DNA of 64,000 nucleotides, taken from Dokdonia sp. 4H-3-7-5. GTDB lineage: Bacteria; Bacteroidota; Bacteroidia; Flavobacteriales; Flavobacteriaceae. Below are positions 3,560 through 64,000 of the stretch, piece after piece. The stretch is from NCBI RefSeq assembly GCF_000212355.1, contig NC_015496.1:2760001-2824000 (forward strand). The letters run 5' to 3'. The stretch's first letter is position 1; every line of letters begins with the position of its first letter. The notes beneath the pieces are model-generated. The model searched no databases. It was not told where the DNA came from and saw only the letters and a program-made list of their open reading frames with translations. The position numbers were made by a program, and so were the translations under genes.

Positions 3560-4531
3560 CTATTTAATCACTATACAACCTTTACCAGAAATTCGGCTGG
3601 AGTAGCTGTCTACTTGAAGTCCATTACCTTCATAAAGTGCGGTACTTTCAGATAGGTATTGATCTATATCCGCTTTCGCGAAAGCGAGACAAAACATACT
3701 AGGTCCGCTGCCAGAAATACCAAAGGCTATGCATCCATTTTTTTGAGAAATCGCTTTAATCTCATCAAAATGGGGAATCAATTGCTTGCGATGTGGCTCT
3801 ACAAGTACATCTTTGATGCTTTCCTTAAATAATTGCTTATCCCATTCATAAAGCGAGGCAACAAAGCCTGCCAGATGTTGTGATTGTGCAATGGCATCCT
3901 TGAGAGGCACGTGCGTGGGTAAAATCTCCCTCGCTTCTTTAGTTTTAATAGTAATATGAGGATGTAAAATCCCGACGAAAACCGTATCCATGGGAGGTAA
4001 TGCAATTACTTTAAATGGATTGTAGCCAGTAACGAGCGTGGTACCTCCATAAATGCAAGGAGCCACATTATCTGCATGCTCATTGCCACTTGCTAGTGCT
4101 TCGCCTTTCATGGCGTAGCGCGTGAGTTCAAGATTAGATAATGGCTGTTCTAAAAACTGATTAATACCATACACCGCACCTGCAGCACTTGCACTACTGC
4201 TGCCTATTCCAGAACCGGAGCGTATCTTTTTATGAATTTCTATTTCTACTCCAAAATCTGCATTAACGCCTTCTAGCATTGCATTACCCGCCACACCAGC
4301 CACATTATTATGAGCTTCCATTGGGAGCTTATCACCTGTAATTTCTGTAATCGTAACTCCGCGACCTTCAGTTTTTCTAAAAACCATCTCGTCACCTATA
4401 CCCTCGAGGGCAAATCCTAGCGAATCAAAACCGCAGTTTACATTTGCCACTGTAGCGGGACAAAATACGCGTATCTCAGTAGGATTATCAAGGCTTTGTA
4501 CCGTGGCTTTTTTATGCATTTCTTGAGACAT
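3560..4531 (-). CDS. thrB: Homoserine kinase
   Basis: 323-residue GHMP-family kinase that phosphorylates L-homoserine with ATP, the step before threonine synthase. The N-terminal half has VFCPATVANVNCGFDSLGFAL, cut here as VFCPATVANVNC then GFDSLGFAL, and the family ATP loop SGSGIGSSSASAAGA lies near residues 106-120; GISGSGPSMF is the third GHMP motif. ATG start, seven bases after the thrA stop, so it is co-transcribed with thrA. A copy of the genome-wide palindrome (3671-3686) encodes AFAKA near the C-terminus (CLAFAKADID). The thrC gene does not follow; the operon ends here at a terminator. Confidence 0.95.
   Translation of the reverse strand: MSQEMHKKATVQSLDNPTEIRVFCPATVANVNCGFDSLGFALEGIGDEMVFRKTEGRGVTITEITGDKLPMEAHNNVAGVAGNAMLEGVNADFGVEIEIHKKIRSGSGIGSSSASAAGAVYGINQFLEQPLSNLELTRYAMKGEALASGNEHADNVAPCIYGGTTLVTGYNPFKVIALPPMDTVFVGILHPHITIKTKEAREILPTHVPLKDAIAQSQHLAGFVASLYEWDKQLFKESIKDVLVEPHRKQLIPHFDEIKAISQKNGCIAFGISGSGPSMFCLAFAKADIDQYLSESTALYEGNGLQVDSYSSRISGKGCIVIK
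3671..3686. repeat. Iterated palindrome in thrB
   Basis: Perfect 16-base copy; read AFAKA. Confidence 0.95.
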
Positions 4532-4538
4532 ATAATTA

Positions 4539-6974
4539 TTATCTAAGTCTTATGATATCGCTAAAAAGTCCGCTGGCGGTAACGTCACCACCTGCACCTG
4601 CACCTTTTACTATGAGCGGTTGCTCTGGGTAGCGTGCAGTGTAAAATAATACAATATTATCAGAACCTTCAAGGTTGTAAAACGGACTATCTGCACCTAC
4701 AGATTGTAAGCCTACGCTTGCTTTGCCACTATCTAACTGTGCTACATATTTAAGGCGTTTACCAGCTGCTGTAGCATCGGCAACTAGTTGTTCAAAGTGT
4801 GCGGCGTCTTCTTTAAGTGTTTCAAAAAAGTGAGGAACGTCTGTGCTTTCAAGGTTGTTTGCTGTGAGAAATGGAGTATTTACAATATCTTCTAGCTCTA
4901 ATTCAAGTCCGCTTTCTCTTGCGAGTATTAGGATTTTACGAGCTACATCTACACCACTTAAATCAATACGAGGATCTGGCTCTGTGTAGCCTTCTTCTTT
5001 GGCTTGTTGAACTACATCATAAAAGCTATCACCACTTTTAAAGTTATTAAAAACAAAGTTTAAACTTCCAGAAAGTACTGCTTGTACTTTAGTAATACTA
5101 TCACCAGACGCGATAAGGTTTTGTAAAGTATCTATGATAGGTAAACCAGCGCCTACGTTGGTTTCAAACTTAAAGGGAGCATTATATTTTCTGCTCAATC
5201 GCTTGAGATTTGCATAGTATTCTTGTTTTCCAGCAGCGGCAATTTTATTACAAGCAACTACGGCAATACTATTTCTCAAGTATTTCTCATATGCCATCGC
5301 TACTGGTTCGTTTGCAGTAATATCTACAAAAACTGAGTTGCGCTGGTTGAGTGCAATTACTTTTTCGCGAAAGCGTACAATATCTGCCTTTTCACCTTGA
5401 GCCAGCGCTTCTTCCCAATTATTTAAATCGATAGCTCGTTCTGAGACGAGCATCATTCTACTGTTAGAAAGTCCTAGCACTCTTATGTTAAGGTTAAGGT
5501 GGTCTTTTAGATATTTTTTCTGAGTGTTAATTTGATCTAGAAGTTTTGCTCCCACATTTCCTACACCTGTAATAAAAAGGTTGATTTGCTTTCTGTTTCC
5601 TTCAAAGAAGACTTCGTGCAGGCTGTTAAGCGCTTTCTTTACATCTTTCTCGGCAATTACTGCAGAGATATTTTTCTCACTCGCTCCTTGTGCAATGGCG
5701 CGTATGTTTACGTTGTTTTTGCCAAGTGTAGAAAACATTTTACCAGAAATGCCTTGATGACTTTTCATAGATTCACCAACTAGTGCAATAATTGCAAGCG
5801 AAGTTTCAACAATCACCGGGTCAATCTTTCTTAGCGAAAGCTCGTAAGCAAACTCTGTTTCTATTGCTGTTTTTGCACGCAAGGCATCTGCTTCCATAAC
5901 ACCGATACAAATGCTATGTTCGCTCGAAGCTTGGGTAATGAGTATCACATTAATCTGCTGTAAAGAGAGTACTTCAAAAAGACGTTTTGAAATTCCAGAA
6001 ATACCCACCATTCCCGCGCCTTCTAGCGTGAGTAGCGCAACGTCACTTATATGAGAAATCCCCTTTATAGGGTTTCCATTGCTTCCTTCTTGCTCTCCTA
6101 TACGAGTTCCAGCTTCTTCTGGAGCCATTGTATTTTTGATATAAATAGGGATGTTTTTACTAAGCGCAGGCACAATAGTAGGAGGGTAGAGCACCTTTGC
6201 TCCAAAATGCGATAACTCCATCGCCTCGTGATATGATATGTCCCGTATAGGTTTTGCCTGTTTTACAAGCTTCGGATTTGCAGAGAACATCCCACTTACA
6301 TCTGTCCATATTTCTAGTTGGTCAACTTCTAGCGCAGCTGCAATTATAGCCGCAGTAAAGTCTGAGCCGCCGCGGCCTAGCGTACTTGTTTCTCCCGTAG
6401 CAGTACTTGCAATAAATCCTCCTAGGATGGTGATGTTTTGTGACGCTTTCGCGAAAAATTCCTTGATATTTTCATTAGTGAGATCATACAATACACTGGC
6501 TTTGGTATGAGTGCCATCGGTAATGATAACTTGTCTACTGTCTTTTAATGTAGCTTCAATCCCTTGATGGTTGAAGGCTGCCGTTATGATACGACTACTT
6601 GTAAGTTCGCCAAAAGCAGCGAGCTTGTCTAGTGTTTTAGGAGAAAGCTCGTTGATTAAGAAAATACCCTTAAGTAAGTCGTCTAAGTGCGACATAAGCG
6701 CACCTATATCAGCCATAACTATGGCATCACCTTCGGTAAGTGCTTTTGCAAAAGCTGTGTGTTTTTGGTGTATTTCTAAAAACACATCTTTATAGGTTTC
6801 ATCTTTTTGAGCAGCAAGCGTTCCGGCTTTTAGCAATAAATCTGTAATTCCACCCACTGCCGAAACAACCACAGCTACTGGATGTGAAGCAGCTTGGTTA
6901 TTTACAATGGCAATTACTTTTTCTATGTTTTTAACACTCCCCACAGAAGTGCCTCCAAATTTTAATACGCGCAT
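4539..6974 (-). CDS. thrA: Bifunctional aspartokinase / homoserine dehydrogenase I
   Basis: 811 residues. The N-terminal aspartokinase domain (about 1-285) opens with MRVLKFGGTSVG; tandem ACT domains (about 310-450) are the expected site of threonine feedback; the C-terminal homoserine dehydrogenase begins near residue 460 with the nucleotide-binding GVGNVGAKLL. It catalyses the first and third steps from aspartate to threonine, isoleucine and methionine. I choose ATG at 6974 over an in-frame TTG nine bases upstream (6983). Two palindrome copies fall in the gene: 5363-5372 reads RFREK and 6447-6456 reads FFAKA. Upstream lie a promoter and a Thr/Ile-rich leader peptide, implying attenuation by threonyl/isoleucyl-tRNA supply. 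Confidence 0.95.
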   Translation of the reverse strand: MRVLKFGGTSVGSVKNIEKVIAIVNNQAASHPVAVVVSAVGGITDLLLKAGTLAAQKDETYKDVFLEIHQKHTAFAKALTEGDAIVMADIGALMSHLDDLLKGIFLINELSPKTLDKLAAFGELTSSRIITAAFNHQGIEATLKDSRQVIITDGTHTKASVLYDLTNENIKEFFAKASQNITILGGFIASTATGETSTLGRGGSDFTAAIIAAALEVDQLEIWTDVSGMFSANPKLVKQAKPIRDISYHEAMELSHFGAKVLYPPTIVPALSKNIPIYIKNTMAPEEAGTRIGEQEGSNGNPIKGISHISDVALLTLEGAGMVGISGISKRLFEVLSLQQINVILITQASSEHSICIGVMEADALRAKTAIETEFAYELSLRKIDPVIVETSLAIIALVGESMKSHQGISGKMFSTLGKNNVNIRAIAQGASEKNISAVIAEKDVKKALNSLHEVFFEGNRKQINLFITGVGNVGAKLLDQINTQKKYLKDHLNLNIRVLGLSNSRMMLVSERAIDLNNWEEALAQGEKADIVRFREKVIALNQRNSVFVDITANEPVAMAYEKYLRNSIAVVACNKIAAAGKQEYYANLKRLSRKYNAPFKFETNVGAGLPIIDTLQNLIASGDSITKVQAVLSGSLNFVFNNFKSGDSFYDVVQQAKEEGYTEPDPRIDLSGVDVARKILILARESGLELELEDIVNTPFLTANNLESTDVPHFFETLKEDAAHFEQLVADATAAGKRLKYVAQLDSGKASVGLQSVGADSPFYNLEGSDNIVLFYTARYPEQPLIVKGAGAGGDVTASGLFSDIIRLR
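5363..5372. repeat. Iterated palindrome core in thrA
   Basis: TTTCGCGAAA core; read RFREK. Confidence 0.9.
6447..6456. repeat. Iterated palindrome core in thrA
   Basis: TTTCGCGAAA core with one arm preserved (ACGC); read FFAKA. Confidence 0.9.
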
Positions 6975-6988
6975 AGTATGCAATTTTA

Positions 6989-7010
6989 CATTTTCGCGAA
7001 AGCGAAAATG
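6989..7010 (-). promoter_or_regulatory. Hairpin just upstream of the thrA start, built on a TTTCGCGAAA copy
   Basis: A nine-base stem (CATTTTCGC / GCGAAAATG) with a four-base loop ends 14 bases before the thrA ATG, where the initiating ribosome would bind. No U-tract follows it, so it looks less like a terminator than a structure that could modulate translation of thrA. The core is one of the repeated palindromes. Confidence 0.5.
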
Positions 7011-7087
7011 GTATGAATAAACTAATTAATTTTTGTGTGTGGAAGAGATCCTTGCTCGCGCAAGTAATAGATAGATGATATGTACGA

Positions 7088-7165
7088 CTATAACCCCAAC
7101 GGGGTAATTGTACCAATAGTAATAGTGGTAGTCAAGAAAATCGAAGTGTATTGTGTTGTTCTCAT
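7088..7165 (-). CDS. thrL: Threonine/isoleucine-rich leader peptide of the thr operon
   Basis: A 25-codon frame, ATG at 7165 to TAG at 7088. It begins MRTTQYTSIFL; residues 12-21 read TTTITIGTIT and the end is PLGL. Nine of 25 residues are Thr and four are Ile, the two end products of the pathway that the next gene (thrA) opens. This is the same logic as the E. coli thrL leader. It lies directly below a good promoter and 113 bases above thrA. Two short, mutually exclusive stems overlap its last codons (GGTA/TACC and ACCCC/GGGGT). I see no classical U-tract terminator, so whether control is by termination, pausing or translation is open. The symbol is assigned by analogy. Confidence 0.75.
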   Translation of the reverse strand: MRTTQYTSIFLTTTITIGTITPLGL

Positions 7166-7181
7166 CTTGTTTATGATATGT

Positions 7182-7211: not shown

Positions 7212-7366
7212 GATGTAGTTCTGAGTTTTGAGGATATGACAATTCTAGTCTTACATCTAGCACGATACTGATAATGTGATAATTTGACGTTTACTTTCGT
7301 GAATATTTAATGAATTAAAGAACATTTTTCTTCATGAAGATGAAGAAACTACCTAATTATAGCTAA

Positions 7367-9564: not shown

Positions 9565-9582
9565 ACGCTTTCGCGAAAGCGT
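9565..9582. repeat. Iterated palindrome, intergenic copy
   Basis: A perfect 18-base copy, ACGCTTTCGCGAAAGCGT, in the 37-base gap between the TonB receptor stop and the lipoprotein start. Confidence 0.95.
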
Positions 9583-12022: not shown

Positions 12023-12352
12023 TTAACAAAACGGGGGACCACGATCTGAGGAACTTAAGATGGTGGTTGTGTATGATGTCTGTAATAAAACATCTACTTC
12101 TTTTGAGATGTGTATGGTGGGTGATGGGTACGCTTTCGCGAAAGCGTAAACTCCAGCCTTTACAATATGCAAATCACCAAGATCACAATCTAGTTTTGAT
12201 TCGTGAACATGCACATCTCCTGTGAATTTACAGGTATCATAATGTTCATGGTTTGCTGTGCTGTGAGAAAAAGAAACTACAGCAGGCAACAAGAGAACAA
12301 GCATTGTAAGTAATGCTATAAGTCTTATAATAATAGAGTTGTCTTTTTTCAA
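12023..12352 (-). CDS. Small exported His-rich protein, putative metal binder
   Basis: 109 residues. The N-terminus is a hydrophobic signal (IIIRLIALLTMLVLLLPAVV). The mature part has a dense set of possible ligands: HEHYDTC, then DVHVHESKLDC and DLGDLHI. The start is TTG, overlapping the upstream stop as TTGA, which suggests coupled translation; no in-frame ATG fits better. A perfect 20-base palindrome copy (12129-12148) encodes AFAKA in its middle. It sits immediately upstream of the TonB receptor, so I infer that it presents or senses a metal such as Zn or Cu. No family name recognised. Confidence 0.65.
   Translation of the reverse strand: MKKDNSIIIRLIALLTMLVLLLPAVVSFSHSTANHEHYDTCKFTGDVHVHESKLDCDLGDLHIVKAGVYAFAKAYPSPTIHISKEVDVLLQTSYTTTILSSSDRGPPFC
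12129..12148. repeat. Iterated palindrome in the His-rich peptide gene
   Basis: Perfect 20-base copy; read YAFAKAYP. Confidence 0.95.
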
Positions 12353-16466: not shown

Positions 16467-17546
16467 CTATAATGTTGTCAAAAATGTAATAGTATCAACC
16501 CCATCTGCATAATCATAAAGCTCAGGTTTCTGAGTTTTTCCAATAGGAGTGAGTTCTTTAACTTTATCCTCTAGTGTAGTATTACCAACGATGCATTGAA
16601 TACGATCTTTATCTATTTCAAGCTTTTCAACTAGGCTTTCTAGAGACTCATATTTCTCATAAAATAGAGTCGCAATAGGTGAGCCGTAGCTTCCATCTTC
16701 CTTAAGCATTAAGAAACCATTCTCTAAGAGCTCAAAAAGGCTCATTAGATATACCGCCTTGTTGTAATCATAATTATTGGCATATTTTGCACCATTCATA
16801 ATATCGCTCCAGTGATAAATAGCTTTAAAAAAGGCATTAAAATTGTAATCTTGTGGTACATATAATTTTGATACATTACGGCATCCTAAACCGTAATACC
16901 TAAATATATCTTCACCTAGTGCAACAAGCTCATCTTCTGTTTCATTACCAGTAAGTACGGCAACAGAATTTCTGTTTTTACGGATAATGTTAGGCTTTTT
17001 ACCAAAGTAATATTCAAAATACCTAGCCGTGTTATCGCTTCCCGTTGCAATCACTGCATCGTAAGCTGGTAATTTATCTTCAGTGAAGCTTATGGTTTCC
17101 TTAAAAGCAGGTTCTGCATATTCTAGATATTTTGCAAGAAAGGGTAGGAGGTGCTTATCATTAGACGATTGTTTTCCTACAAATTTATGCCCAGCAATTA
17201 ATACGCACATAAAGTCATGAAAGCCTACTAATGGAATATTACCTGCCATGATTACGGCAACGGTTTGTTGTGATTGCGCTTTCGCGAAAGCGGTATCATA
17301 CCCATCAAGCCACTCAGTAAGTTTTTCTTGAGTAAGTGACTGTGCCCAGCCTTCTAAAGCGAAGAGTATATTTTCTTTAGTGAACCAGCCGTTGTTTTCA
17401 CTAGCTAGTTTAAACTGATGCTGCATTCCGTCAAAGAAGAGATCATTGTGTAATACTCCTTCTTTTTGGGCAATTGAGTCACGTGTAAACTGACTTAAAA
17501 ATTTTCCTAGCTCAATAAAAGCGTTAATTCGTAGTTGAAGTGTCAT
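16467..17546 (-). CDS. Acyl-CoA reductase, LuxC-like
   Basis: 359 residues from ATG 17546; a TTG four codons upstream is less likely. LuxC-like aldehyde-dehydrogenase fold: [51 protein letters not shown] and the Cys in [15 protein letters not shown], the probable thioester nucleophile. Bacteroidota carry this gene beside ferredoxin and serC; its physiological substrate is not established to my knowledge. A perfect 16-base palindrome (17277-17292) encodes DTAFAKAQS, a place where homologues would be expected to vary. It heads the operon that continues into serC and serA. Confidence 0.85.
17277..17292. repeat. Iterated palindrome in the acyl-CoA reductase gene
   Basis: Perfect 16-base copy; read AFAKA. 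Confidence 0.95.
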
Positions 17547-22608: not shown

Positions 22609-23359
22609 TAATCGTGTGTGGGACGGTATCTAGATTCCAGTCTATCACTAATCCTCCTGCTAGTGAACGTGCTATTTCTGCACCATATAAGTGTTCTGTA
22701 AGGTAGAGTGCAGCCTCAAAACTTTTGGCACCACCAGCAGAGGTGATGTATTTCCCGTCGTGAACAAATAGGGTTTCTTTTCTAATATCAAGGGCTGGAA
22801 ACTTAGCTCTCATTTTATCTATATCACTCGGGAAAGTAGTAGAAACTTTATCATCGAGAAGTCCTGCCTGTGCAAGCACAAAAGCACCATCACAATGAGA
22901 AGTCATAAAAAGAGCTTCTTTATCTACTTTCTGAACAAAAGAAATCATCGCCTCATCATCTAGATCTGTATCTAGGTGATGCTCTGCGCTAGGGATTACT
23001 AGAATGTCAATCTTAGGCATTTTCTCTTGTGTATAATCAAAATCGGGTAGGAGGTACATACCTTCAAATGTTCTAATAGGATCCAGTGTATTTGCAACTG
23101 TAAACACATTCATCGCTTTAATGCTATCTCTATAGATTGTGTGCTGAAAAATATCAAAAGGCGCAGTGAGTTCCGTATTAAAAGTGCCATCCATAATTAA
23201 GAAAGCTACGTTATACCTAGATGTATCTAATACAGGTTGCGCTTTCGCGAAAGCGTTATTTTCATTTGAAGTTTTTTCTTGTAATGAGTTTTGATTGTCC
23301 TTATTAGTATTGCATGCTTGTACCACAAGGGCACTTAAAATGATAATGATAATTCTCAT
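22601..23359 (-). CDS. DJ-1/PfpI-family lipoprotein
   Basis: 252 residues. The lipoprotein signal MRIIIIILSALVVQAC has the lipobox Cys at residue 16, so the protein should sit on a membrane outside the cytoplasm, unusual for this fold. After a short linker comes a DJ-1/PfpI (class I glutamine amidotransferase-like) domain with the nucleophile-elbow Cys in MTSHCDGAFVLAQAG and a Glu/Asp-rich early loop. A perfect palindrome copy (23240-23255) encodes NNAFAKAQP in the linker directly behind the lipidation site. Reaction unknown. Second gene of the MFS operon. Confidence 0.85.
   Translation of the reverse strand: MRIIIIILSALVVQACNTNKDNQNSLQEKTSNENNAFAKAQPVLDTSRYNVAFLIMDGTFNTELTAPFDIFQHTIYRDSIKAMNVFTVANTLDPIRTFEGMYLLPDFDYTQEKMPKIDILVIPSAEHHLDTDLDDEAMISFVQKVDKEALFMTSHCDGAFVLAQAGLLDDKVSTTFPSDIDKMRAKFPALDIRKETLFVHDGKYITSAGGAKSFEAALYLTEHLYGAEIARSLAGGLVIDWNLDTVPHTIID
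23240..23255. repeat. Iterated palindrome inside the DJ-1 lipoprotein gene
   Basis: Perfect 16-base CGCTTTCGCGAAAGCG, read as AFAKA in the linker after the lipobox. Confidence 0.95.
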
Positions 23360-24761: not shown

Positions 24762-24829
24762 TAATATCATACTATGTGTAAAGTTATAAAAATAATTGAG
24801 TTGAATACGCTTTCGCTAAAGCGTAACGT

Positions 24830-28578: not shown

Positions 28579-28600
28579 TTACGCTTTCGCGAAAGCGTAA
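28579..28600. repeat. Iterated palindrome, the longest copy in the window
   Basis: A 22-base perfect palindrome, the core GCTTTCGCGAAAGC extended by TTAC and GTAA, in the gap between ppgK and the AI-2E-type permease gene. Confidence 0.95.
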
Positions 28601-31970: not shown

Positions 31971-33212
31971 TTAGTTGTTATTTGCTATAATTTCTAAGGT
32001 TTGAGTAATCCAGTCCCTGTCAAAACTTAATTTGATTTCTGGTTGTACACCTACATATTCATAATTGATAAATTTATGAAAATTCATATCTGTAGGGTAT
32101 ATTGCAAAATGACCAGATGGTGATTCAATTAGATTTCCATAATTAGAACCATAAGCAAGAGCTCCGTAAGTTCTCTGTCCTAAATGTTTTGCATTTTTTA
32201 ATCCTCTCAATTTGAGAGTAAATTGCTCACCATTACTTCCACACCAGAAGTTTGTAATGACATAAACATTCATTTTGTTCTTTTTAAATATTTTATAAAA
32301 TGGATCTGAATATTTAGAATTACCTCCAGAATTATCACGTAGATCAACAATAATATTTTTTGCAGTAAACTTATCTTTTGTTTCTTCATAAAATTTCTTG
32401 TAAGCACTTACTTTTTCTTCGTTATTAGAAAAAGCACCCATATATACATACTGCGTGTCTGGCGTAAGTTGTTTAAATTCCCAATCTATTTGGTCTTGCT
32501 TTACCTCAGAAATCATATTTGTTGCTTCTTTTTTAAGATGCCATAAGCGTCCGTTAGAATGTAATAAACCTCTCACATATCTTAACTTACCGCCTGGAAT
32601 ATCGCTTGTAAGTACATCATACATATTTTCGCCATTTGGAGTAATTCTGTAAGCGATTTGTCCAGGAATCCAGCCTTTATTACTAGAGGTAAGTACAACT
32701 CCTTCATAAGCATCACCTTTCTTAATAACGCCTACGGTCATAGAATCTTTTCTTTCATAAATACCTTCTAGACTTTCAAAAGACTTCTCAGATAATGTTG
32801 CTATAAGCTCTTCAATACTCGTACTGGTCTTAGGATGATTCTTAAATAGTTCGCTTTCGCGAAAACGGTTCAAAGCTACATTCTCATCTACCATTTCGGA
32901 GGTGATTACAGGCTTTATATGGCGTATGTGAGCATGTTTGTCCTTTACAACAGATAGTAGCGTGTTGAGCTTAGAAAAGCAATCTGTCACATTCATTTGT
33001 TCAGTTACTTCTCGCTCTAATTTTTTTAAGGTGGTTGTGTATTCTGAGAGTTTATCTCCTTTCATTTGTTTCTTAAATGAAGTCATTTCTTTTATTTGTT
33101 CATTAATAAAAGAGAGTTCCTCTACGCAGTTGCACGTTTGAGTAGATTGTGCTTTCGCGAAAGCGGAAAAAAGAAAAAAAACGGCTATTGAAAGTGTGAT
33201 AAGTGTTTTCAT
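31971..33212 (-). CDS. S41 (C-terminal-processing-like) peptidase, exported
   Basis: 413 residues. The signal peptide MKTLITLSIAVFFLFSAFAK ends with AKA-Q, and that AxA site is encoded by a palindrome copy (33151-33164). The N-terminal region is helical with CNCVEEL. The catalytic region has IVDLRDNSGGNSKYSDPFY and the nucleophile region FWCGSNGEQFTLKLR, in which Ser of GSNGE replaces the usual SAGE. A second palindrome (32855-32864) reads RFRES. No PDZ domain is obvious. Likely a periplasmic or surface protease. Confidence 0.85.
   Translation of the reverse strand: MKTLITLSIAVFFLFSAFAKAQSTQTCNCVEELSFINEQIKEMTSFKKQMKGDKLSEYTTTLKKLEREVTEQMNVTDCFSKLNTLLSVVKDKHAHIRHIKPVITSEMVDENVALNRFRESELFKNHPKTSTSIEELIATLSEKSFESLEGIYERKDSMTVGVIKKGDAYEGVVLTSSNKGWIPGQIAYRITPNGENMYDVLTSDIPGGKLRYVRGLLHSNGRLWHLKKEATNMISEVKQDQIDWEFKQLTPDTQYVYMGAFSNNEEKVSAYKKFYEETKDKFTAKNIIVDLRDNSGGNSKYSDPFYKIFKKNKMNVYVITNFWCGSNGEQFTLKLRGLKNAKHLGQRTYGALAYGSNYGNLIESPSGHFAIYPTDMNFHKFINYEYVGVQPEIKLSFDRDWITQTLEIIANNN
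32855..32864. repeat. Iterated palindrome core in the S41 peptidase gene
   Basis: TTTCGCGAAA core with near-complete arms; read RFRES. Confidence 0.9.
33151..33164. repeat. Iterated palindrome at the S41 signal-peptide cleavage site
   Basis: Perfect 14-base copy; read AFAKA, giving the AKA cleavage motif. Confidence 0.95.
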
Positions 33213-37267: not shown

Positions 37268-37951
37268 ATGACTACTTCGATACCTCAGTCTACTTTATCA
37301 TTTTTGGAATCTCTACGTGAGAATAATACACGTGAGTGGATGACAGAGCACAAGAAAGATTACCAAGCTAGTGAGAAAGACTTAAAGCAAGTTTATGCAT
37401 CTATAGTAGATGGACTTAATGAAACTGACGAAATTGAAAAACTCAAGGTATTTCGTATAAATAGGGATGTTAGATTTAGTAATGACAAAACTCCATATAA
37501 CGTACATCGTTCTGCAAGTTTTAGTAGAGTAGGAGCACATCGCCGAGGTGGATATTATTTGAGAATTGAGCCCGGTAATAAATCTGCAATTGCAGGCGGG
37601 TTTTTCAATCCAGAACCAGCAGATTTAAAACGTATACGTACAGAATTTCAAATGGATGCTAGTGAGATACGTGAGATTCTTTCTGATACCGCTTTCGCGA
37701 AAGCGTTCGGAGGTTCCTTTGATGCATGGAATCCTGTCAAGACAGCACCTAGGGGCTTTGACGTAAATGATCCGAATATTGATCTCATAAGACTCAAAAA
37801 CTTTGTAGTTAGAAAGAATTTCACAGATAAAGAAATCACATCTCCAGACTTCACAAAAATTGCCTTGAGTCACTTTAGATTATTGAGACCCTTTTTTGAT
37901 TATATGAGTGATGTATTGACTACAGACCTCAATGGTGAATCATTACTCTAG
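37268..37951 (+). CDS. DUF2461 family protein
   Basis: 227 residues. SLRENNTREWMTEHKKDYQ, KVFRINRDVRFSNDKTPYNVH and GGYYLRIEPGNKSAIAGGFF are typical of DUF2461 (TIGR02453), given in parts here. No signal peptide. A perfect palindrome (37690-37705) encodes DTAFAKAFGG in the middle. Function unknown. Its stop overlaps the end of the small convergent gene below by four bases. Confidence 0.88.
   Translation: MTTSIPQSTLSFLESLRENNTREWMTEHKKDYQASEKDLKQVYASIVDGLNETDEIEKLKVFRINRDVRFSNDKTPYNVHRSASFSRVGAHRRGGYYLRIEPGNKSAIAGGFFNPEPADLKRIRTEFQMDASEIREILSDTAFAKAFGGSFDAWNPVKTAPRGFDVNDPNIDLIRLKNFVVRKNFTDKEITSPDFTKIALSHFRLLRPFFDYMSDVLTTDLNGESLL
37690..37705. repeat. Iterated palindrome in the DUF2461 gene
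   Basis: Perfect 16-base copy; read AFAKA. Confidence 0.95.
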
Positions 37952-38534: not shown

Positions 38535-38622
38535 AACACTTTGTTTTTATTTAAAGTTAAGCAATGATTAGGCGCTTAGCAATTGATATACCATAACTTC
38601 TCAATACTTTATTAACGAGCAA

Positions 38623-41388: not shown

Positions 41389-41694
41389 TTAATGGTGAGA
41401 CTGCATTTTTTCCTTCTTTTTTCTAAGTTGGCGATCAACCTCATTTATAGCTTCTTTTAGTGAAGGATAAAAATCGTCAGAGCTATGTTCTGCAAATAAT
41501 CTTGGACCAGGCATACTTATTTGTACCCCTGCTATTTTTCCTGTTTGATCACTTGAGGTATTTTCTACTTTAAAAAATACATCTGCTCTATGTGCAAATT
41601 GATACTTATCGCTCAATTTTTTTAATTCCGCTTTCGCGAAAGCTTCTAATTCTGCACTTGCAGTTACATCGTGGTATTCAAATATTACTTCCAT
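41389..41694 (-). CDS. hpf: HPF/RaiA-family ribosome hibernation factor
   Basis: 101 residues, the short HPF/RaiA type. MEVIFEYHDVTASAELEAF, FFKVENTSSDQTGKIAGVQI and DDFYPSLKEAINEVDRQLRK match the family, which sits in the ribosome decoding region during stationary phase. A palindrome copy (41630-41643) encodes EAFAKAELK in helix 1. Context with MscS suggests a stress-response cassette. Confidence 0.88.
   Translation of the reverse strand: MEVIFEYHDVTASAELEAFAKAELKKLSDKYQFAHRADVFFKVENTSSDQTGKIAGVQISMPGPRLFAEHSSDDFYPSLKEAINEVDRQLRKKKEKMQSHH
41630..41643. repeat. Iterated palindrome in hpf
   Basis: Perfect 14-base copy; read AFAKA. Confidence 0.95.
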
Positions 41695-42783: not shown

Positions 42784-44139
42784 ATGAATATAGTATCTAC
42801 AAATCCGTACAACGGAACAGAAGTAGCCAAAATAAAAGCACTCAACTTAGAAGAGATAGAAGATAAAATTGAAAATGCACAACAAACGTTTCTTTCTTGG
42901 CGCAATACCACTTTTGCAGAGCGCTCACAACACCTTAATAATGTAGCCAAAGAATTAAGAGATAATGCAAGAGAGTACGCAGAAACAATGACTAAGGAAA
43001 TGGGTAAGCCCATCACACAAGCCATTGCCGAAGTAGAAAAATGCGCTTGGGTGTGTGAATATTACGCAGAAAATGCTCCATCACAACTAGCACCTAAGGA
43101 GATAAAAACAGATGCTTCAAAAAGTTATGTACGTTATGAACCTTTAGGCGTTGTGCTTGCGGTAATGCCATGGAATTACCCATTTTGGCAAGTATTTAGA
43201 TTCATTGCTCCAGCGCTTATGGCAGGTAATATAGGTGTGTTGAAACATGCAAGTAATGTAATGCAAAGTGCAGAAAATATTCAAAAAGTATTTGAACGTG
43301 CAGGACTTCCTAAGGGGTGTTTTCAAAACATGGCGATAGGTAGTGAGCGTATTGAAAATATCGTTCGAGATTCTCGTATTAAGGCAATAACACTTACTGG
43401 TAGTAAGCCAGCAGGAGCAGCTGTAGCAAGTACAGCAGCAAGCGAAATTAAAAAATCAGTCCTTGAGCTTGGAGGTAGTAATGCACTCGTAGTTTTTGAC
43501 GATTGTAATTTTGAGGAAACGGTACAAACGTGTGTGCAAGCGCGCTTTCAAAATACAGGGCAGAGTTGTATCGCTGGAAAGAGACTTATAATTCATGAAA
43601 AAATTCAAGAGAAGTTTTTAGAAGCTTTCGCGAAAGCGGTGACAGAATTAAAATCTGGTGACCCCATGGATGAGGATACGTACATAGGAGTGATGGCACG
43701 TGAAGACCTCGCCGAAGAATTAGAAGATCAACTCAAAAAATCTATTGCCGAAGGTGCAAAAGTGCTTATAGGTGGTCATAGACAGAAAGCTTATTTTGAG
43801 CCAACAATTGTCACGGGAGTAACACCAGAGATGACAATATTTAAAGAAGAAACCTTTGGGCCTGTAATAGGAGTTACTACATTTAAATCTGACGAGGAAG
43901 CACTAAATCTCGTAAACCAATCTGATTTTGGCCTAGGAGTATCCATTTTTACAGAGAGTGAAGAACGTATGGAAACATTGATTCCGAAGTTTGAGGATGG
44001 CGCTGTATTTGTAAATGATATGGTGAAGAGTAATCCTAATCTTCCTTTTGGAGGAACAAAAATTTCAGGATACGGTCGCGAACTCTCTATAGACGGTATA
44101 CAGGAGTTTGTAAATAAAAAGACAGTTTATATTAAATAG
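42784..44139 (+). CDS. NAD(P)-dependent succinate-semialdehyde dehydrogenase
   Basis: 451 residues, aldehyde dehydrogenase superfamily. PWNYPFWQVFRFIAPALMAG is the NAD-binding start, ELGGSNALVVF has the catalytic Glu, FQNTGQSCIAGKRLIIHE the catalytic Cys, and EETFGPVIGV the conserved late motif. It is close to SSADH of the Sad/GabD type that oxidises succinate semialdehyde. A palindrome copy (43624-43637) encodes EAFAKAVTE. Ends at a shared terminator. Confidence 0.9.
   Translation: MNIVSTNPYNGTEVAKIKALNLEEIEDKIENAQQTFLSWRNTTFAERSQHLNNVAKELRDNAREYAETMTKEMGKPITQAIAEVEKCAWVCEYYAENAPSQLAPKEIKTDASKSYVRYEPLGVVLAVMPWNYPFWQVFRFIAPALMAGNIGVLKHASNVMQSAENIQKVFERAGLPKGCFQNMAIGSERIENIVRDSRIKAITLTGSKPAGAAVASTAASEIKKSVLELGGSNALVVFDDCNFEETVQTCVQARFQNTGQSCIAGKRLIIHEKIQEKFLEAFAKAVTELKSGDPMDEDTYIGVMAREDLAEELEDQLKKSIAEGAKVLIGGHRQKAYFEPTIVTGVTPEMTIFKEETFGPVIGVTTFKSDEEALNLVNQSDFGLGVSIFTESEERMETLIPKFEDGAVFVNDMVKSNPNLPFGGTKISGYGRELSIDGIQEFVNKKTVYIK
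43624..43637. repeat. Iterated palindrome in the SSADH gene
   Basis: Perfect 14-base copy; read AFAKA. Confidence 0.95.
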
Positions 44140-44168
44140 TAGGACGCTTTTGCGAAAGCGCATTTAAA

Positions 44169-44307: not shown

Positions 44308-45210
44308 ATGAAATTTGGCGTAGTAGAGCAACCAGAGTTAATTGATTTTACACTACCTCCTGATCATCCAGATACTAAGGGTGTGATTGAGCATGCTTTC
44401 GCGAAAGCGGAAAACAAAGAGTTACAAGTCTTCGTAGGTTGTGCAAAATGGAATAAAGCAGAGCTCAAAGGCTTCTACCCAAAAGGTACAAAAGATGAGC
44501 TAGGGTATTATGCAAGTCAGTTTAACAGTATAGAGCTTAACGCTACTTTCTATAGATTATTTCCTAAGGAGCAGTTTCAAAAGTGGTATGATAAAGTTCC
44601 AGAGGGTTTTAAATTCTTTCCTAAAATTACAAATATGATAAGCCATCGCAAGCGGCTTATAGATTCTCAAGATTTTATTCCGGAGTATGTTGAACACGCA
44701 ACAATCCTCAAGGAAAAACTTGGTACTGTGTTCTTGCAGATGCACAACAATTTCCAGCCTAAGGATTTTGACCGAGTAGATAATTTTGTAAATCACTGGC
44801 CAGAAGATTTATCTATTGCCTTAGAGTTTCGTCATACCGATTGGTTTAACAATCCCGACGTGGCGGAGCGTCTTTATCTTTTACTTGAAGAGCACAACAT
44901 GGCAAATGTGCTCGTAGATACTGCTGGGCGTCGCGATATTATGCATATGCGTCTTACTAATGGAGAAGCTTTTATACGATATGTAGGAGCAAATCATCCT
45001 AGTGATTATGCTCGGCTAGATGCATGGGTAGAGCGCTTGAAGTATTGGGTAAGTCTAGGATTGCGTAAAATTCACTTTTTTATCCATCAAAATGTCGAGG
45101 TCGAGTCTACATTACTATCTGCATATTTTATAGATAAGCTCAATCCAGCATTAAACATTAATCTGCACATTCCTCATAGTGCGAGCGGTGGAGTAAATAC
45201 CTTATTTTAA
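44308..45210 (+). CDS. DUF72 family protein
   Basis: 300 residues, TIM-barrel-like DUF72 (YecE) domain: VGCAKWNKAELKGFYP, YYASQFNSIELNATFYRLFP, FPKITNMISHRKRL and EFRHTDWFN. Function unknown in the family. A palindrome (44395-44408) encodes EHAFAKAENK near the N-terminus, ahead of the conserved core. Its stop overlaps the gntK start by one base. Confidence 0.9.
   Translation: MKFGVVEQPELIDFTLPPDHPDTKGVIEHAFAKAENKELQVFVGCAKWNKAELKGFYPKGTKDELGYYASQFNSIELNATFYRLFPKEQFQKWYDKVPEGFKFFPKITNMISHRKRLIDSQDFIPEYVEHATILKEKLGTVFLQMHNNFQPKDFDRVDNFVNHWPEDLSIALEFRHTDWFNNPDVAERLYLLLEEHNMANVLVDTAGRRDIMHMRLTNGEAFIRYVGANHPSDYARLDAWVERLKYWVSLGLRKIHFFIHQNVEVESTLLSAYFIDKLNPALNINLHIPHSASGGVNTLF
44395..44408. repeat. 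Iterated palindrome in the DUF72 gene
   Basis: Perfect 14-base copy; read AFAKA. Confidence 0.95.
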
Positions 45211-45710
45211 TGAAGAATGTTTACATAGTTATGGGCGTTTCCGGTTGCGGAAAAAGTACCATAGGTAAGATGTTATCAAAGCAATTACAAGTTCCTTTTT
45301 ACGATGCAGATGATTTTCATCCCCAAGTTAATGTAGATAAAATGGCATCTGGTACACCATTGCAAGATGAGGATCGATGGCCGTGGCTCGATAGCCTAGC
45401 TCTAGAGATACAGCAGTGGTCAAATGATAAAGGGGCGGTACTTGCTTGCTCTGCACTTAAGGAGAGTTATAGAGAGCGTTTATTTTCTGATTCCGCTTTC
45501 GCGAAAGCAAAACAAAACTTTATCTATCTTGATGCAAATTTTGAAGCATTAAGAAAACGGCTAGCTTTTAGAAAGAATCATTTCTTTGATCCTTCATTAT
45601 TGCAATCGCAGTTTGATACACTAGAAGTACCCAATTATGGTGTTCATGTAGAAGCGACTCTAGCAAAAGAAGACATCATTAGAAGAATACAACAAATTAT
45701 AGAACAATAG
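45210..45710 (+). CDS. gntK: Gluconokinase
   Basis: 166 residues, the usual length. VMGVSGCGKSTIGKMLSKQL is the P-loop; PFYDADDFHPQVNVDKMASG, LACSALKESYRERLF and FDPSLLQSQFDTLEVP are the GntK motifs (YDADDFHP, RKNHFFDPSLL). It phosphorylates gluconate to 6-phosphogluconate. A palindrome (45495-45508) encodes DSAFAKAKQN. Followed after four bases by the gluconate transporter. Confidence 0.95.
   Translation: MKNVYIVMGVSGCGKSTIGKMLSKQLQVPFYDADDFHPQVNVDKMASGTPLQDEDRWPWLDSLALEIQQWSNDKGAVLACSALKESYRERLFSDSAFAKAKQNFIYLDANFEALRKRLAFRKNHFFDPSLLQSQFDTLEVPNYGVHVEATLAKEDIIRRIQQIIEQ
45495..45508. repeat. Iterated palindrome in gntK
   Basis: Perfect 14-base copy; read AFAKA. Confidence 0.95.
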
Positions 45711-47131: not shown

Positions 47132-47147
47132 CGCTTTCGCGAAAGCG
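47132..47147. repeat. Iterated palindrome, intergenic copy after gntP/purB terminator
   Basis: Perfect 16-base copy CGCTTTCGCGAAAGCG, 12 bases beyond the hairpin and five bases before the purB stop codon. Confidence 0.95.
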
Positions 47148-48573: not shown

Positions 48574-49914
48574 TTATAATAGGCCTCTTGCTTTAATTTC
48601 TAGATATTTATTAATAGTACTTACCGTGAGATCATCTGGCTTGGTTAATATGGTTTGAATACCGTATTGTTCAAGTCGAGCAACCATTACTTTTTTATCA
48701 AGATCTGCTTTTTGGGCAATCGTTTTATGATACACCTCGGGAAGTGTTTCGGCAGGTGCTGCAATAAGCTGATCGAGTTCTGTGTTTTGGAAAAAGATAA
48801 CCACCAAGACATGTTTTCGCGAAAGCGCTTTTAAATAAGGCAACTGTCTTTCAAGCGCAGTTATGTGCTCAAAATTTGTGTACAATAGTAGTAAGCTGCG
48901 CTGTGTGATTTTACGTTTTACTTGGTTGTACAACGCACCATAATCACTGTCCAAAAACTTAGTGTCAATATTGTAAAGCACCTCTAAAATGGTCTGTAAG
49001 TGTGTTTTCTTACTACTCGCAGGAAGGTGATTTTTAATAGTCTCTGCAAAGGTGAGCATGCCTACTTTGTCTTTTTTCTTTAAAGCAATATTAGAAAATG
49101 CCAGCGTACTGTTAATCGCATAATCTAATAGCGTCAGGCCTTTAAAAGGCATCTTCATCACACGGCTAGCATCTATGAGTGCATATACAGGTTGTGACTT
49201 CTCATCTTGAAACTGATTTACCATCAGGCTTGCACGTTTCGCAGTTGCTTTCCAGTTAACGGTACGTGCATCATCACCAGGGACGTAATCTTTAATTTGC
49301 TCAAACTCCATCGTGTGTCCCAGGCGGCGTATTTTTTTCATGCCGTGCATAGTAAGTCTATTATCTAGGGCAAGAAATGCATACTTTTTCATCTGGATAA
49401 AAGATGGGTACACCTTTACCATCTGATCTTTCTCAAAGCGGTAGCGACGTTTTACAAGTTTAAGCTTCGTACTCACATACACATTGAGATGCCCAAAGGT
49501 GTACTCACCACGCTCTGTAGGACGCAAGGAATATACAAATGATCTTGTTTCTCGTGCTGGGATCTCAATTACTTTACTAAAATCACGTTTTTGAAACTGC
49601 TCTGGTATTTCATCAATGATATCAAGTGTTACTGCAAATGGATATTTATTCTCGAGGGTGACAGGAAGCTCGTTTGCATCACTGTTTGAGAATTTTTCTG
49701 GTAGCTCTCTCACACCTTTTATTTTTCCGCTTGCGCGAAAAAGAACTAAGGCATCCACAAAAAATGCGAGCACCAGTAAAAGCAATAAGATATTAGTAAT
49801 TCCAAACAGGCTATGAAACCAGTAGGAAATCAAATAAAGCACACCGATAACTCCCAGCGCATAAAACAGGCGCTGGTGAACAAAAAAACTTTTTATAAAT
49901 CTTATAATAGCCAA
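48574..49914 (-). CDS. DUF58 protein of a MoxR-type cluster
   Basis: 446 residues. Two N-terminal helices (ALGVIGVLYLISYWFHSLFG, then ITNILLLLLVLAFFVDALVL) and the DUF58 core (PGDDARTVNWKATAKRASLM, a vWA-like fold with VYALIDASRVMKMP). Start is TTG at 49914, three bases after the MoxR stop. A palindrome (48815-48824) reads ALSRKH, the only copy in the third frame. Usually partners MoxR in chaperone-like assembly of membrane or secreted complexes. Confidence 0.88.
   Translation of the reverse strand: MAIIRFIKSFFVHQRLFYALGVIGVLYLISYWFHSLFGITNILLLLLVLAFFVDALVLFRASGKIKGVRELPEKFSNSDANELPVTLENKYPFAVTLDIIDEIPEQFQKRDFSKVIEIPARETRSFVYSLRPTERGEYTFGHLNVYVSTKLKLVKRRYRFEKDQMVKVYPSFIQMKKYAFLALDNRLTMHGMKKIRRLGHTMEFEQIKDYVPGDDARTVNWKATAKRASLMVNQFQDEKSQPVYALIDASRVMKMPFKGLTLLDYAINSTLAFSNIALKKKDKVGMLTFAETIKNHLPASSKKTHLQTILEVLYNIDTKFLDSDYGALYNQVKRKITQRSLLLLYTNFEHITALERQLPYLKALSRKHVLVVIFFQNTELDQLIAAPAETLPEVYHKTIAQKADLDKKVMVARLEQYGIQTILTKPDDLTVSTINKYLEIKARGLL
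48815..48824. repeat. Iterated palindrome core in the DUF58 gene
   Basis: TTTCGCGAAA core; read ALSRK, the third frame. Confidence 0.9.
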
Positions 49915-52201: not shown

Positions 52202-53004
52202 AGCTGATTATTTATTTGGGTGAAAGATGTTTTTGCTTTCGCGAAAGCGGTCTCATCGACCTCAAAATTACCATACCAGATATAGTCGTAAATATCTGTC
52301 ACTTTTCTGAACTGGTTTCTTAAGTTTAGGTCTTCTATTTCGAATAAATAGTCATGATTTGTTTTCTGTACTTGCCAATCTATAAGATCGTGCTCACTCA
52401 TTTTCTGAAGTACACGTAGATAATAAAAACGGACAGCTAGTCTGTAATTACCAGCAGCAATAGCCTGTTCTATTAATTGGTCAAGGTCTTGTCTCTGTAT
52501 GAGCTCCTCATCATCTGAGAGTAACGTTTCAGGAGCTTTTATTTTTTCCATTAATAAGGAACCGCTATCTATTTTCATAAATAGCCATACAAAGAATACT
52601 AGTAAACCTACAATTAATAAGTAGGGTAGTAGTTCTACTATGACTGCCCAGACACCTGTTGCTTCGTTACCACCAGTAAGCCAGCGTATGAAAGCGTTAT
52701 ATAAGTCATCAATTTTTCTTTTGAAACGTGACCACCAGGTATCTTCTGGAGTCGCTTCTCTATAATTAAATTCGTCGTCTTGTTTGTACTCATCAAGACT
52801 ATTTTCAGAGATGGGAAGCGGTATTACTGTTCCCTCATCATAAGAAACAATACCACGAGGATCATGATAGGTGTTTTCGGGATAGATTACTTTCTCTTCA
52901 ACGATTTCCTCAGTAGTAGTTTCTTCTTGAGTTTTTTGTATAGCGGTAGCTTTCGCGCAAAGCGAACATAGAAACAGCATACATAGCAACCACAGTTTAT
53001 GCAT
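52198..53004 (-). CDS. DUF4129-like membrane protein
   Basis: 268 residues. A signal peptide (MHKLWLLCMLFLCSLCAKAT), an acidic Pro/Thr linker, one membrane helix (VELLPYLLIVGLLVFFVWLF, about 127-146) and a helical cytoplasmic domain (LDQLIEQAIAAGNYRLAVRF). Two palindrome-related sites: a degenerate copy in the signal peptide (encoding CAKA, 52949-52965) and a perfect one at the C-terminus (52235-52248, ETAFAKAKTS). Third gene of the MoxR cluster in reading order. Confidence 0.75.
   Translation of the reverse strand: MHKLWLLCMLFLCSLCAKATAIQKTQEETTTEEIVEEKVIYPENTYHDPRGIVSYDEGTVIPLPISENSLDEYKQDDEFNYREATPEDTWWSRFKRKIDDLYNAFIRWLTGGNEATGVWAVIVELLPYLLIVGLLVFFVWLFMKIDSGSLLMEKIKAPETLLSDDEELIQRQDLDQLIEQAIAAGNYRLAVRFYYLRVLQKMSEHDLIDWQVQKTNHDYLFEIEDLNLRNQFRKVTDIYDYIWYGNFEVDETAFAKAKTSFTQINNQL
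52235..52248. repeat. Iterated palindrome in the DUF4129-like gene
   Basis: Perfect 14-base copy; read AFAKA. Confidence 0.95.
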
Positions 53005-57119: not shown

Positions 57120-57137
57120 ACGCTTTCGCGAAAGCGT
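57120..57137. repeat. Iterated palindrome, intergenic copy
   Basis: Perfect 18-base ACGCTTTCGCGAAAGCGT between the convergent CoA-binding and symporter genes. Confidence 0.95.
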
Positions 57138-60323: not shown

Positions 60324-60333
60324 TTTCGCGAAA
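60324..60333. repeat. Iterated palindrome core upstream of hisS
   Basis: TTTCGCGAAA core with diverged arms, intergenic. Confidence 0.85.
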
Positions 60334-60505
60334 GTGTAAAACAGATACTTATCTCTAAAAATCTATTTCTTTGATGAGAGAGTCATGAAAATGGAAGCAA
60401 GAGTAATTACCTCTAGCATAATTAAAATTTAAGGTGATATTCTAAAAGAATCAATTGCCAGATTACCAAAATAAAAACGTAAAGGATTAACGTCTAACAT
60501 ATAAT

Positions 60506-62179: not shown

Positions 62180-62246
62180 AATTTAAACAGAGCCAACCTT
62201 GAAGAACGGAAAGGCTCCGCCACTAACGACTATTGACTTAACACCT

Positions 62247-64000
62247 ATGAACATCGATTTTAAAAAATTCCTTCCGCATATTCTAGTTGTACTTGGCTTT
62301 ATAGTCGTGGCGCTGGTTTACTTCAATCCGGTGTTATCTGGAAAGCGCATTTATCAAAATGATATCAAGCTCTATGAAGGGATGGCAAAGCAACATCGAG
62401 ATTTTAGAGCAGAGACGGGTGAGGAGACTTACTGGACTAATAGTGCCTTTGGAGGGATGCCTACTTATCAGATGGGAGCGAGGTTTGAGTATGATATGAT
62501 GGATAAGTTGGACCGTGTGATTCGCTTTTTACCACGCCCGGCAGATTATCTTTTTCTATATTTTATATCCTTTTATGCATTAATGCTTGTGATGCGCGTC
62601 CCTTGGAAGCTCGCCGTAGTTGGCGCACTTGCCTTTGGTCTGTCTACGTATCTCATTATTATTATAGGCGTAGGGCATAATTCAAAGGTGCACGCCATCG
62701 GGTATTTCCCGCTTGTTCTTGCGGGTATTATACTTACGTATCAAAAAAGATATCTCTGGGGATTTTTACTCACTGCCGTTGCAATGGGACTAGAAATACA
62801 GGCTAATCACTACCAGATGACCTATTATCTAGGGTTGCTTTGTGTGATTTTAGGGATTGCATACCTCATAGATGCTATCAAGAAAAAACAACTTCCACAT
62901 TTCTTCAAAGCTTCGGGAATACTAGTAATTGCTGTATTATTAGGTCTCGCTACAAACGCAACCACCTTACTTGCTACTGCAGAGTATGCAGAGACAAGTA
63001 TACGTGGCGAGCAATTATTAAAAGATGACCTTGCCAAAGACGCCGTAGAAGACGGTCTTGGTTTTGATTATATCACACAGTGGAGCTACGGTAAGCTAGA
63101 GTCTCTCAATCTCATCGCATCAGATTTTATGGGAACTGGTACCGCTGCCGATTTGGGTCGTGATTCCGCTTTCGCGAAAAAATTAAGCACATTAGGAGTT
63201 CCTGCAAACGAAGTAAGTTATTATGCTCAAGGAACGAGATTATACTGGGGAGAACAGCCATTTGTAGAAGCTCCTCCATACCTTGGAGTAACTGTTTTTG
63301 CACTTGCATTATTAGGACTGTTTCTAGTAAATGGAAGATTGCGCTGGTGGTTACTTGCAGGTATGATCGTTTCCCTAATATTAAGTTGGGGAAAGAACGT
63401 AGAAGGAATTACACGTTTCTTTATTGACTATGTGCCGTTGTACAATAAGTTTAGAGCGGTTACGAGTATACAGGTAATTTTAGAGTTGTTATTACCTATT
63501 GCAGCAATGGTAGGCTTGCACAGATTCTTTTATGACCGCGTAGATCAAGCCGAAAAGCAAAAGAAGTTACTTATCGCTATAGGTTCGCTAGCAGGGCTTT
63601 TTGTGGTACTCTACCTTTTTAGCGGAAGCTTATTTAACCTACGCTCTGCCGCCGAAGGACAGATGGCCATCGAGCAACCAGAAATATTAAATGCCATAAA
63701 AGAAGATCGACTTGCTGTATTGAAAAGTGATGTGTTGAGGTCTTTATTATTTGTGTTTTTTATAGGTGTAGCCTTGTGGTTAACACTCAAGAAAAAGATT
63801 TCAGAAAATATCGCAATAATCACCATTGGTGCGCTCATAGTTTTTGACCTTGTAGGTGTAGATAGACGTTCTGTAAATGAAGAAAACTTCATCACCCAGC
63901 GACAGTATGATCAGAACTTCCAGATTACTCCTATCGATGAAGAAATCAAAAAGGATGATAGCTACTTTCGTGTGATTGATCTTGCGAGAGGATTTAATAA
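62247..64000 (+). CDS. YfhO-family membrane protein, 3' end outside window
   Basis: 584 codons visible, running off the window. About a dozen membrane helices: HILVVLGFIVVALVYFNPVL, YLFLYFISFYALMLVMRVPW, AVVGALAFGLSTYLIIIIGV and so on, with large luminal loops (TGEETYWTNSAFGGMPTYQM) of the YfhO/GT-C glycosyltransferase-like type. Members help glycosylate teichoic or surface polymers. A palindrome (63170-63179) reads DSAFAKKLS. ATG 62247, 67 bases after hisS. Confidence 0.85.
   Translation, partial: MNIDFKKFLPHILVVLGFIVVALVYFNPVLSGKRIYQNDIKLYEGMAKQHRDFRAETGEETYWTNSAFGGMPTYQMGARFEYDMMDKLDRVIRFLPRPADYLFLYFISFYALMLVMRVPWKLAVVGALAFGLSTYLIIIIGVGHNSKVHAIGYFPLVLAGIILTYQKRYLWGFLLTAVAMGLEIQANHYQMTYYLGLLCVILGIAYLIDAIKKKQLPHFFKASGILVIAVLLGLATNATTLLATAEYAETSIRGEQLLKDDLAKDAVEDGLGFDYITQWSYGKLESLNLIASDFMGTGTAADLGRDSAFAKKLSTLGVPANEVSYYAQGTRLYWGEQPFVEAPPYLGVTVFALALLGLFLVNGRLRWWLLAGMIVSLILSWGKNVEGITRFFIDYVPLYNKFRAVTSIQVILELLLPIAAMVGLHRFFYDRVDQAEKQKKLLIAIGSLAGLFVVLYLFSGSLFNLRSAAEGQMAIEQPEILNAIKEDRLAVLKSDVLRSLLFVFFIGVALWLTLKKKISENIAIITIGALIVFDLVGVDRRSVNEENFITQRQYDQNFQITPIDEEIKKDDSYFRVIDLARGFN
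63170..63179. repeat. Iterated palindrome core in the YfhO gene
   Basis: GCTTTCGCGAAAA; left arm intact, right arm diverged; read AFAKK. Confidence 0.9.

Follow-up and report, generated by a model that had tools for sequence, protein, structure and literature searches.

A highly iterated palindrome and its possible reader in the genome of Dokdonia sp. 4H-3-7-5

The genome of Dokdonia sp. 4H-3-7-5, a single contig of 3,389,993 bp, contains 1,012 copies of the palindrome TTTCGCGAAA versus 10 of its reversed control, and 757 copies of the longer 14-mer GCTTTCGCGAAAGC versus 0. In the window, which is the whole 64-kb stretch analysed (positions 2,760,001-2,824,000 of the contig), 23 exact copies of the 10-mer were found in the range 3674-63179. 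These sites are real and maintained. We propose that they are read by a dimeric DNA-binding protein, for which approximately one site per few kb would serve as a self-DNA address on intracellular DNA, and we assign this reading a probability of roughly 0.45. That the sites are read in trans is very likely. No description of the palindrome was found in the open-access literature.

The palindrome is iterated genome-wide and maintained

The initial annotation of the window had reported 23 exact copies, 15 of them as the 14-mer, and both counts held on recount. The 8-mer TTCGCGAA was also found 23 times, every one within the 10-mer. Dinucleotide-preserving shuffles of the window contained 0.03 copies of the 10-mer on average and none of 100 shuffles reached 23, and Markov models of order 1 to 3 predicted about 0.07 copies, giving an overall expectation of 0.03-0.07. 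The reported excess over chance is thus neither reproduced by a Markov model nor confined to the window, and in this genome-wide excess of a palindrome over Markov expectation the word behaves like the highly iterated palindromes (HIPs). The G+C content of the window was 37.1%, not approximately 40% as previously given. A 464-kb sample of the same genome, consisting of twenty 20-kb stretches and the window, contained 138 perfect cores versus 0.53 expected from base composition, an approximately 260-fold excess.

The unit is larger than the size first reported. It consists of the 22-bp palindrome TTACGCTTTCGCGAAAGCGTAA, with an almost invariant 10-bp core, and of G-poor arms reaching to approximately 26 bp from the centre. 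The flank profile was based on 314 distinct carrier contexts (628 half-sites) after removal of duplicates and of sites near stretch ends. Read outwards, the half-site consensus was GAAA followed by G (92%), C (94%), G (80%), T (55%), A (63%) and A (60%). In the arm, the share of G per position was 3-12% over +6 to +21, 23% at +22 and 12-13% at +23 and +24, and the G-poor arms were alike in coding, intergenic, sense and antisense contexts. GCG was present in both halves of 169 sites, in one half of 128 and in neither half of 17. At 17 of the 24 flank positions, mirror-image letters coincided less often than expected, and the excess was greatest at +21 (109 vs 91). The half-sites vary independently, which points to a protein on duplex DNA and not to a hairpin; hairpin and RNA structures were rejected since the mirror positions lack general covariation. 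The information content is approximately 20 bits in the core (by construction) and 7.8 bits per side, and by simple arithmetic about 11.7 bits would be enough to place 1,012 sites.

Cores with a single mismatch were rare. The 464-kb sample contained 34 such one-off forms versus 16.3 expected from base composition, and the over-representation drops approximately 238-fold from perfect to one-off cores. When at most one flank mismatch was allowed, 114 perfect and 11 one-off cores remained, and the two outermost core positions accounted for just 1 of the 34. Common, outward-biased one-off forms, as known for HIPs, were therefore not seen (34 one-off versus 138 perfect). By the same formula the fall is 92-fold for the Haemophilus and 82-fold for the Neisseria uptake word; the Actinobacillus uptake word has 438 perfect and 947 one-off copies, and the extended HIP1 5,648 and 1,830 (Bakkali 2007, PMC1939737).

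Intergenic DNA, by our own calls of open reading frames (ORFs) 8.7% of the bases in the 464-kb sample, held 50 of the 138 copies, an approximately fourfold enrichment, and the remaining 88 were coding. For the window, the reported split into 17 coding and 6 intergenic copies agrees with the ORF list (intergenic at 6992, 28585, 47135, 57124, 60324 and 63170). The favoured reading frame contained 49 of the 88 coding copies, 48 of these encoding Ala-Phe-Ala-Lys, and the other two frames contained 21 and 18. Coding copies were also skewed to the 5′ half of genes (56/88). The intergenic copies lay between tandem genes (18 and 17), divergent genes (10) and convergent genes (5), over 10.8, 14.0, 9.7 and 4.1 kb, respectively. 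A role as terminator or promoter was rejected, given the lack of a strong gene-orientation preference and of any orientation in the palindrome itself. A hairpin element of the REP/REPIN type, limited to intergenic DNA, is at odds with the 88 coding copies and with the absence of hairpin-like covariation. An insertion element is not favoured either, as most coding sites align without gaps in comparisons with the two other carrier genera described below, g11 and g210 (sites at alignment gaps, 5/18 and 1/8, respectively).

The sites are evenly spaced. For the first 100 sites of the genome the coefficient of variation of the gaps was 0.63 versus 0.99 for random placement, and 4 gaps were shorter than 1 kb versus 23.7. 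A null model that allows for the intergenic enrichment gave on average 33.9 gaps shorter than 1 kb, and never fewer than 21 in 1,000 runs, versus 10 observed among 117 gaps. In a second species (G016), with 67 sites, the coefficient was 0.67 versus 0.99. The 20 stretches sampled around the chromosome contained 2 to 8 copies per 20 kb with no large-scale trend, the origin not having been located, and the three low stretches (2, 3 and 3 copies) were non-adjacent apart from the first two.

Sites for nucleoid occlusion or segregation of the Noc, parS or MatP type, which had been suggested on account of their layout, are hard to reconcile with such uniformity. The TTTC...GAAA arrangement does resemble the parS and Noc-site consensus, but the half-site spacing is 2 bp off the parS consensus. 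Neither was a second ParB_N gene linked to carriage of the palindrome: exactly one was detected in 18 of 20 genomes, the exceptions being one carrier (G010) and one non-carrier (G184). We consider this explanation very improbable indeed.

Conservation was assessed in five congeners, with alignments shorter than 400 bases dropped and other 10-mers as controls. The palindrome was strongly maintained, at 19/20, 18/20, 11/11, 8/8 and 2/4 sites, whereas control 10-mers were kept in 58, 32, 14, 16 and 7% of cases; the 11/11 refers to a congener at 78% identity. Base-level conservation was elevated to approximately 7 bp from the centre and not farther. In the gene for aspartokinase-homoserine dehydrogenase, carriers of two genera have Arg-Phe-Arg-Glu over the site, whereas non-carriers have Gly-Phe-His-Glu or similar (G-F-x-x). 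The near-perfect variants reported earlier are also real, CGCTTTCGCTAAAGCG at 24808 and CGCTTTTGCGAAAGCG at 44145. The sites in the window, with their state in relatives (genome handles beginning with G), are as follows.

Site 1, 3674..3683: coding, ORF 3560-4531 (minus strand)
Site 2, 5363..5372: coding, aspartokinase-homoserine dehydrogenase ORF 4539-6983 (minus strand); kept in G007; same position in G011 and G230 (genus g210)
Site 3, 6447..6456: coding, aspartokinase-homoserine dehydrogenase ORF; kept in G008 and G007; absent in G011 and G230
Site 4, 6992..7001: intergenic; one core mismatch in G007
Site 5, 9569..9578: coding
Site 6, 12134..12143: coding
Site 7, 17280..17289: coding, LuxC-like ORF
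Site 8, 23243..23252: coding
Decayed site, 24808..24823: CGCTTTCGCTAAAGCG, one core mismatch; exact in G008 and G007
Site 9, 28585..28594: intergenic; complete 22-bp consensus
Site 10, 32855..32864: coding, S41 peptidase ORF
Site 11, 33153..33162: coding, same S41 peptidase ORF as site 10
Site 12, 34757..34766: coding
Site 13, 37693..37702: coding; not kept in G004
Site 14, 41632..41641: coding; not kept in G004
Site 15, 43626..43635: coding, aldehyde dehydrogenase ORF; kept in G008, G007, G016, G003 and G004
Decayed site, 44145..44160: CGCTTTTGCGAAAGCG, one core mismatch; exact in G008, G007 and G016
Site 16, 44397..44406: coding; two core mismatches in G008; kept in G016 and G003
Site 17, 45497..45506: coding; three core differences in G007; kept in G008, G016 and G003
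Site 18, 47135..47144: intergenic, convergent genes on either side
Site 19, 48815..48824: coding
Site 20, 52237..52246: coding, ORF 52198-53004 (minus strand)
Site 21, 57124..57133: intergenic, convergent genes on either side
Site 22, 60324..60333: intergenic
Site 23, 63170..63179: intergenic

Distribution among genera and phages

In a survey of the Flavobacteriaceae (397 genomes from 237 genera) only three genera exceeded 34 copies. The six survey genomes above this number were two from the own genus (g1), three from g11 and one from g210. All 22 genomes examined in the three carrier genera (18 of g1 from a wider sample of that genus, three of g11 and one of g210) contained 481-1,195 copies. 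In a survey of the phylum, the 14-mer was present in 0 to 6 copies in 394 genomes besides the own genome. The nearest site-free genus found, g164, displayed 34 and 24 copies versus 21 and 18 for the control. One gene tree places g164 as sister to g1 and g210 (support 91/89). In a tree of AddB from 17 genomes, rooted at the midpoint, g164 groups with g210 (94/97; G230 on a long branch) and g11 lies outside all others.

In 21 orthologous gene pairs with g210 (mean identity 68%), 3 of 8 sites occupied the same coding position, and in 53 such pairs with g11 (mean identity 67%) 0 of 18 did. The genus g11 has the same word with the same arms, and the comparison hints that the word accumulated there independently. 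Such apparent independent accumulation would suggest a trans-acting reader that is transferable.

Islands bearing the word were also observed in non-carriers, where they match positions 1,290,001-1,310,000 of the own genome (L008) over kilobases. These are L344 and L345 in G200 and L347 and L348 in G029, with best pieces at 85-88% identity, and L352 in G141 at 78-80%. Judged from these alignments, they are apparently DNA exchanged with a carrier lineage, and the word may serve as a tracer of DNA transfer. In another non-carrier, G183, three 10-mers (L346, positions 10220, 14603 and 16200) share one repeated context, TTTCGCGAAAGACAGACA, and seem to be a local repeat with no connection to the word.

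Among 2.9 million viral contigs scanned for the 16-mer, 41 stretches on 30 contigs matched. In the DNA examined, 19 of these contained at least two 10-mers, several being near-duplicates, and displayed the G-poor arms (G 7% at +7 to +12), whereas the 11 single-match contigs as a group did not (G 33%). The phage copies were located inside terminase, portal/minor-head and head-protease-like genes. At all seven phage places compared, the same core was present in at least one related contig (69-98% identity).

Other repeats were noted in the same material. In G318, of genus g83 (L320-L323; see also L220 and L226), TTC[CG]GAA was counted 68 times in 80 kb versus 0-10 times in seven other 80-kb samples, and CTTCSGAAG 20 times versus about 1 expected; the flanks of TTC[CG]GAA are asymmetric and its spacing is uneven. 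This may be a separate case of an iterated word, built on GAA half-sites, in a different genus of flavobacteria. Another candidate iterated palindrome was seen in Flavobacterium selenitireducens (L196), where 21 kb contain 14 copies of CGAATTCG and 7 of TCGAATTCGA. Tandem repeats were found in the own genome at approximately 613,036-618,000 (L004, 3036-7932; about 50 copies with a 96-bp period) and in G215 (L313, 9979-16768; about 30 copies with a 219-bp period).

The proposed reader and rival explanations

The initial annotation had likened the palindrome to HIP1 and to DNA uptake sequences, and had named a binding protein, an uptake system or a methylase as its possible reader. The likeness holds for copy number, evenness and on/off phylogeny; neither uptake by a type IV pilus nor a methylase of the three families examined is supported as a cause shared by the carriers. 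A dedicated, sequence-specific binding protein fits best, and we infer that it is dimeric, that it can be transferred and that its sites act as a self-address. Such a symmetric protein would read approximately 50 bp of duplex DNA, with TTTCGCGAAA at the junction of two half-sites, and with GCG-TAA and a G-poor arm continuing each of them outwards. It would need about one site per few kb, and if a second site within approximately 1 kb added little, even spacing would follow. The sites would act on intracellular DNA, chromosome and some phages alike, as a short-range address of self-DNA, the most likely use being to organise or protect each few-kb stretch. Perhaps the gene for this reader is accessory and can be transferred, as two separate flavobacterial lineages possess the same word at different places. 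A KilA-N/APSES-type protein was considered as a candidate, since yeast Swi4 sites read CGCGAAA.

Several observations weigh against this reading. No reader gene was identified, and four isolated flavobacterial phages contained zero sites, although two of these phages come from a host of the Nonlabens type that is perhaps not itself a carrier. The conservation and evenness of the sites are also expected from a strong uptake drive. There is also turnover, with sites present in relatives and absent from the window (two each in G008, G007 and G016 and one in G003); most of these correspond to the two decayed copies of the window, and the place at 38570 is quite different in the window. The two gene trees give g210 different nearest relatives, g1 in one and the site-free g164 in the other. 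The contrast with g11 is partly confounded, because identity is only 47-63% in most of the g11 pairs that bear sites; among pairs with at least 60% identity, common positions were 3/7 for g210 and 0/4 for g11.

The main rival is a DNA uptake sequence, with a competence receptor that favours DNA bearing the palindrome and with molecular drive spreading it through the genome, as happens in Haemophilus and Neisseria. Several features agree with it: the density of copies and their even spacing, the excess between genes, the hard core with soft flanks and the on/off phylogeny. Even spacing is described as an expected outcome of uptake drive (Mora 2020, PMC7811141). The pilus-type uptake ATPase is, however, not common to the carriers: PF00437, the family of PilB/PilT-type ATPases of type II secretion systems and type IV pili, was over the cut-off in 5 of 15 carriers, the own genome not among them, and in 3 of 10 non-carriers, the search for uptake machines being limited to this family. 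The site is moreover fully palindromic, which uptake sequences are not known to be. The loss at one-off cores is steeper than in Haemophilus and Neisseria, and sites occur in phage structural genes. We regard uptake as unlikely, if still deserving of attention.

A ratchet driven by an orphan DNA methyltransferase together with methyl-directed mismatch repair, as modelled for HIP1, is a less plausible cause. Cyanobacterial HIP1 and alternate HIPs accompany matching methyltransferases (Elhai 2015, PMC4390886). None of three such families was universal among the 15 carriers examined here, and C5, N6/N4 and D12 methyltransferases were not supported as a shared cause: the C5 family PF00145 was present in 6 and absent in 9, PF01555 was over the cut-off in 2 and not in 13, and the D12 family PF02086 was present in 9 and absent in 6. 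Three carriers, the own genome (G000), G008 and G281, had none of the three over the cut-off, enzymes of the HsdM and Eco57I types being outside the search. The unit of 22 bp plus arms also far exceeds the usual methylase target, and one-off forms are few.

It is improbable, too, that the word is a neutral by-product of biased mutation or conversion without benefit to the cell. Its seeming accumulation at other places in g11 is what a one-enzyme process would yield. A mutational process should leave many one-step intermediates, but one-off forms are rare, and the sites override protein sequence, as in the dehydrogenase gene described above.

A Chi-like site, which would turn AddAB from a destroyer into a loader of recombinase, in either direction as it is palindromic, is unlikely to a still greater degree. 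An AddB-type PDDEXK nuclease domain was present in all 17 genomes tested, 9 of them carriers; each strand is poor in C in its 5′ flank and would yield GT-rich single-stranded DNA fit for RecA loading, and phages would profit. Two g11 genomes gave no second, AddA-type match. The AddB tree does not unite the carriers, and the nuclease domain was rejected as a shared cause: g11 AddB is not close to that of g1 or g210, and AddB of the site-free g164 groups with that of g210, so that the same 22-bp specificity would have had to arise twice. Known Chi words are short, at most approximately 8 nucleotides, and asymmetric.

An extension of the proposed dimeric reader to transferable genome addressing is doubtful. 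An accessory DNA-binding protein acquired at least twice in the Flavobacteriaceae would then impose a symmetric address of approximately 50 bp on each few-kb stretch of the chromosome, overriding protein sequence where needed, and some phages would carry the address. If true, this would be self-marking written in plain sequence, without DNA modification.

Comparison with known iterated sequences

The palindrome is a HIP-like iterated word that lacks one HIP feature, the common one-off forms. HIP1 (GCGATCGC) and the alternate HIPs of cyanobacteria are, as here, palindromes iterated genome-wide and on or off among relatives, with palindromic extensions in some genomes (Elhai 2015, PMC4390886). 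HIP1 is, however, an 8-bp word with short extensions, linked to methyltransferases and with one-off forms common in many cyanobacteria, whereas the palindrome described here has approximately 22 bp plus arms, rare one-off forms and no tested methyltransferase family common to all carriers. The uptake sequences of Pasteurellaceae and Neisseriaceae resemble it in their hard core and soft flanks, approximately 10^3 copies, even spacing, intergenic enrichment and clade-specificity. It differs from them in being palindromic, in the missing pilus ATPase family in most carriers tested, in the steeper one-off loss and in its presence in phage structural genes.

Chi (GCTGGTGG) of E. coli K12 is similar in number, with 1,008 copies versus the 1,012 reported here, both chromosome-wide, but it is short and asymmetric with an approximately 7-fold excess (1,008 vs 151; Bakkali 2007, PMC1939737), whereas the symmetric palindrome reaches approximately 260-fold in 464 kb.

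The parS, Noc-binding and matS sites are likewise palindromic and protein-bound, parS and Noc sites sharing the TTTC...GAAA look. Such sites are few or limited to a domain, in contrast to the approximately 1,000 uniform copies found here, and 12 of the 13 carriers tested have just one ParB_N gene.

The present case uncouples palindrome iteration, as also seen with HIP1, from the methyltransferase families tested. It also offers sharp contrasts, with a close genus without sites and a distant genus with the same word, together with strong selection and a long, well-defined motif. Given these presence/absence contrasts and the length of the motif, the reader should be findable, and the function of such words would then become directly testable.

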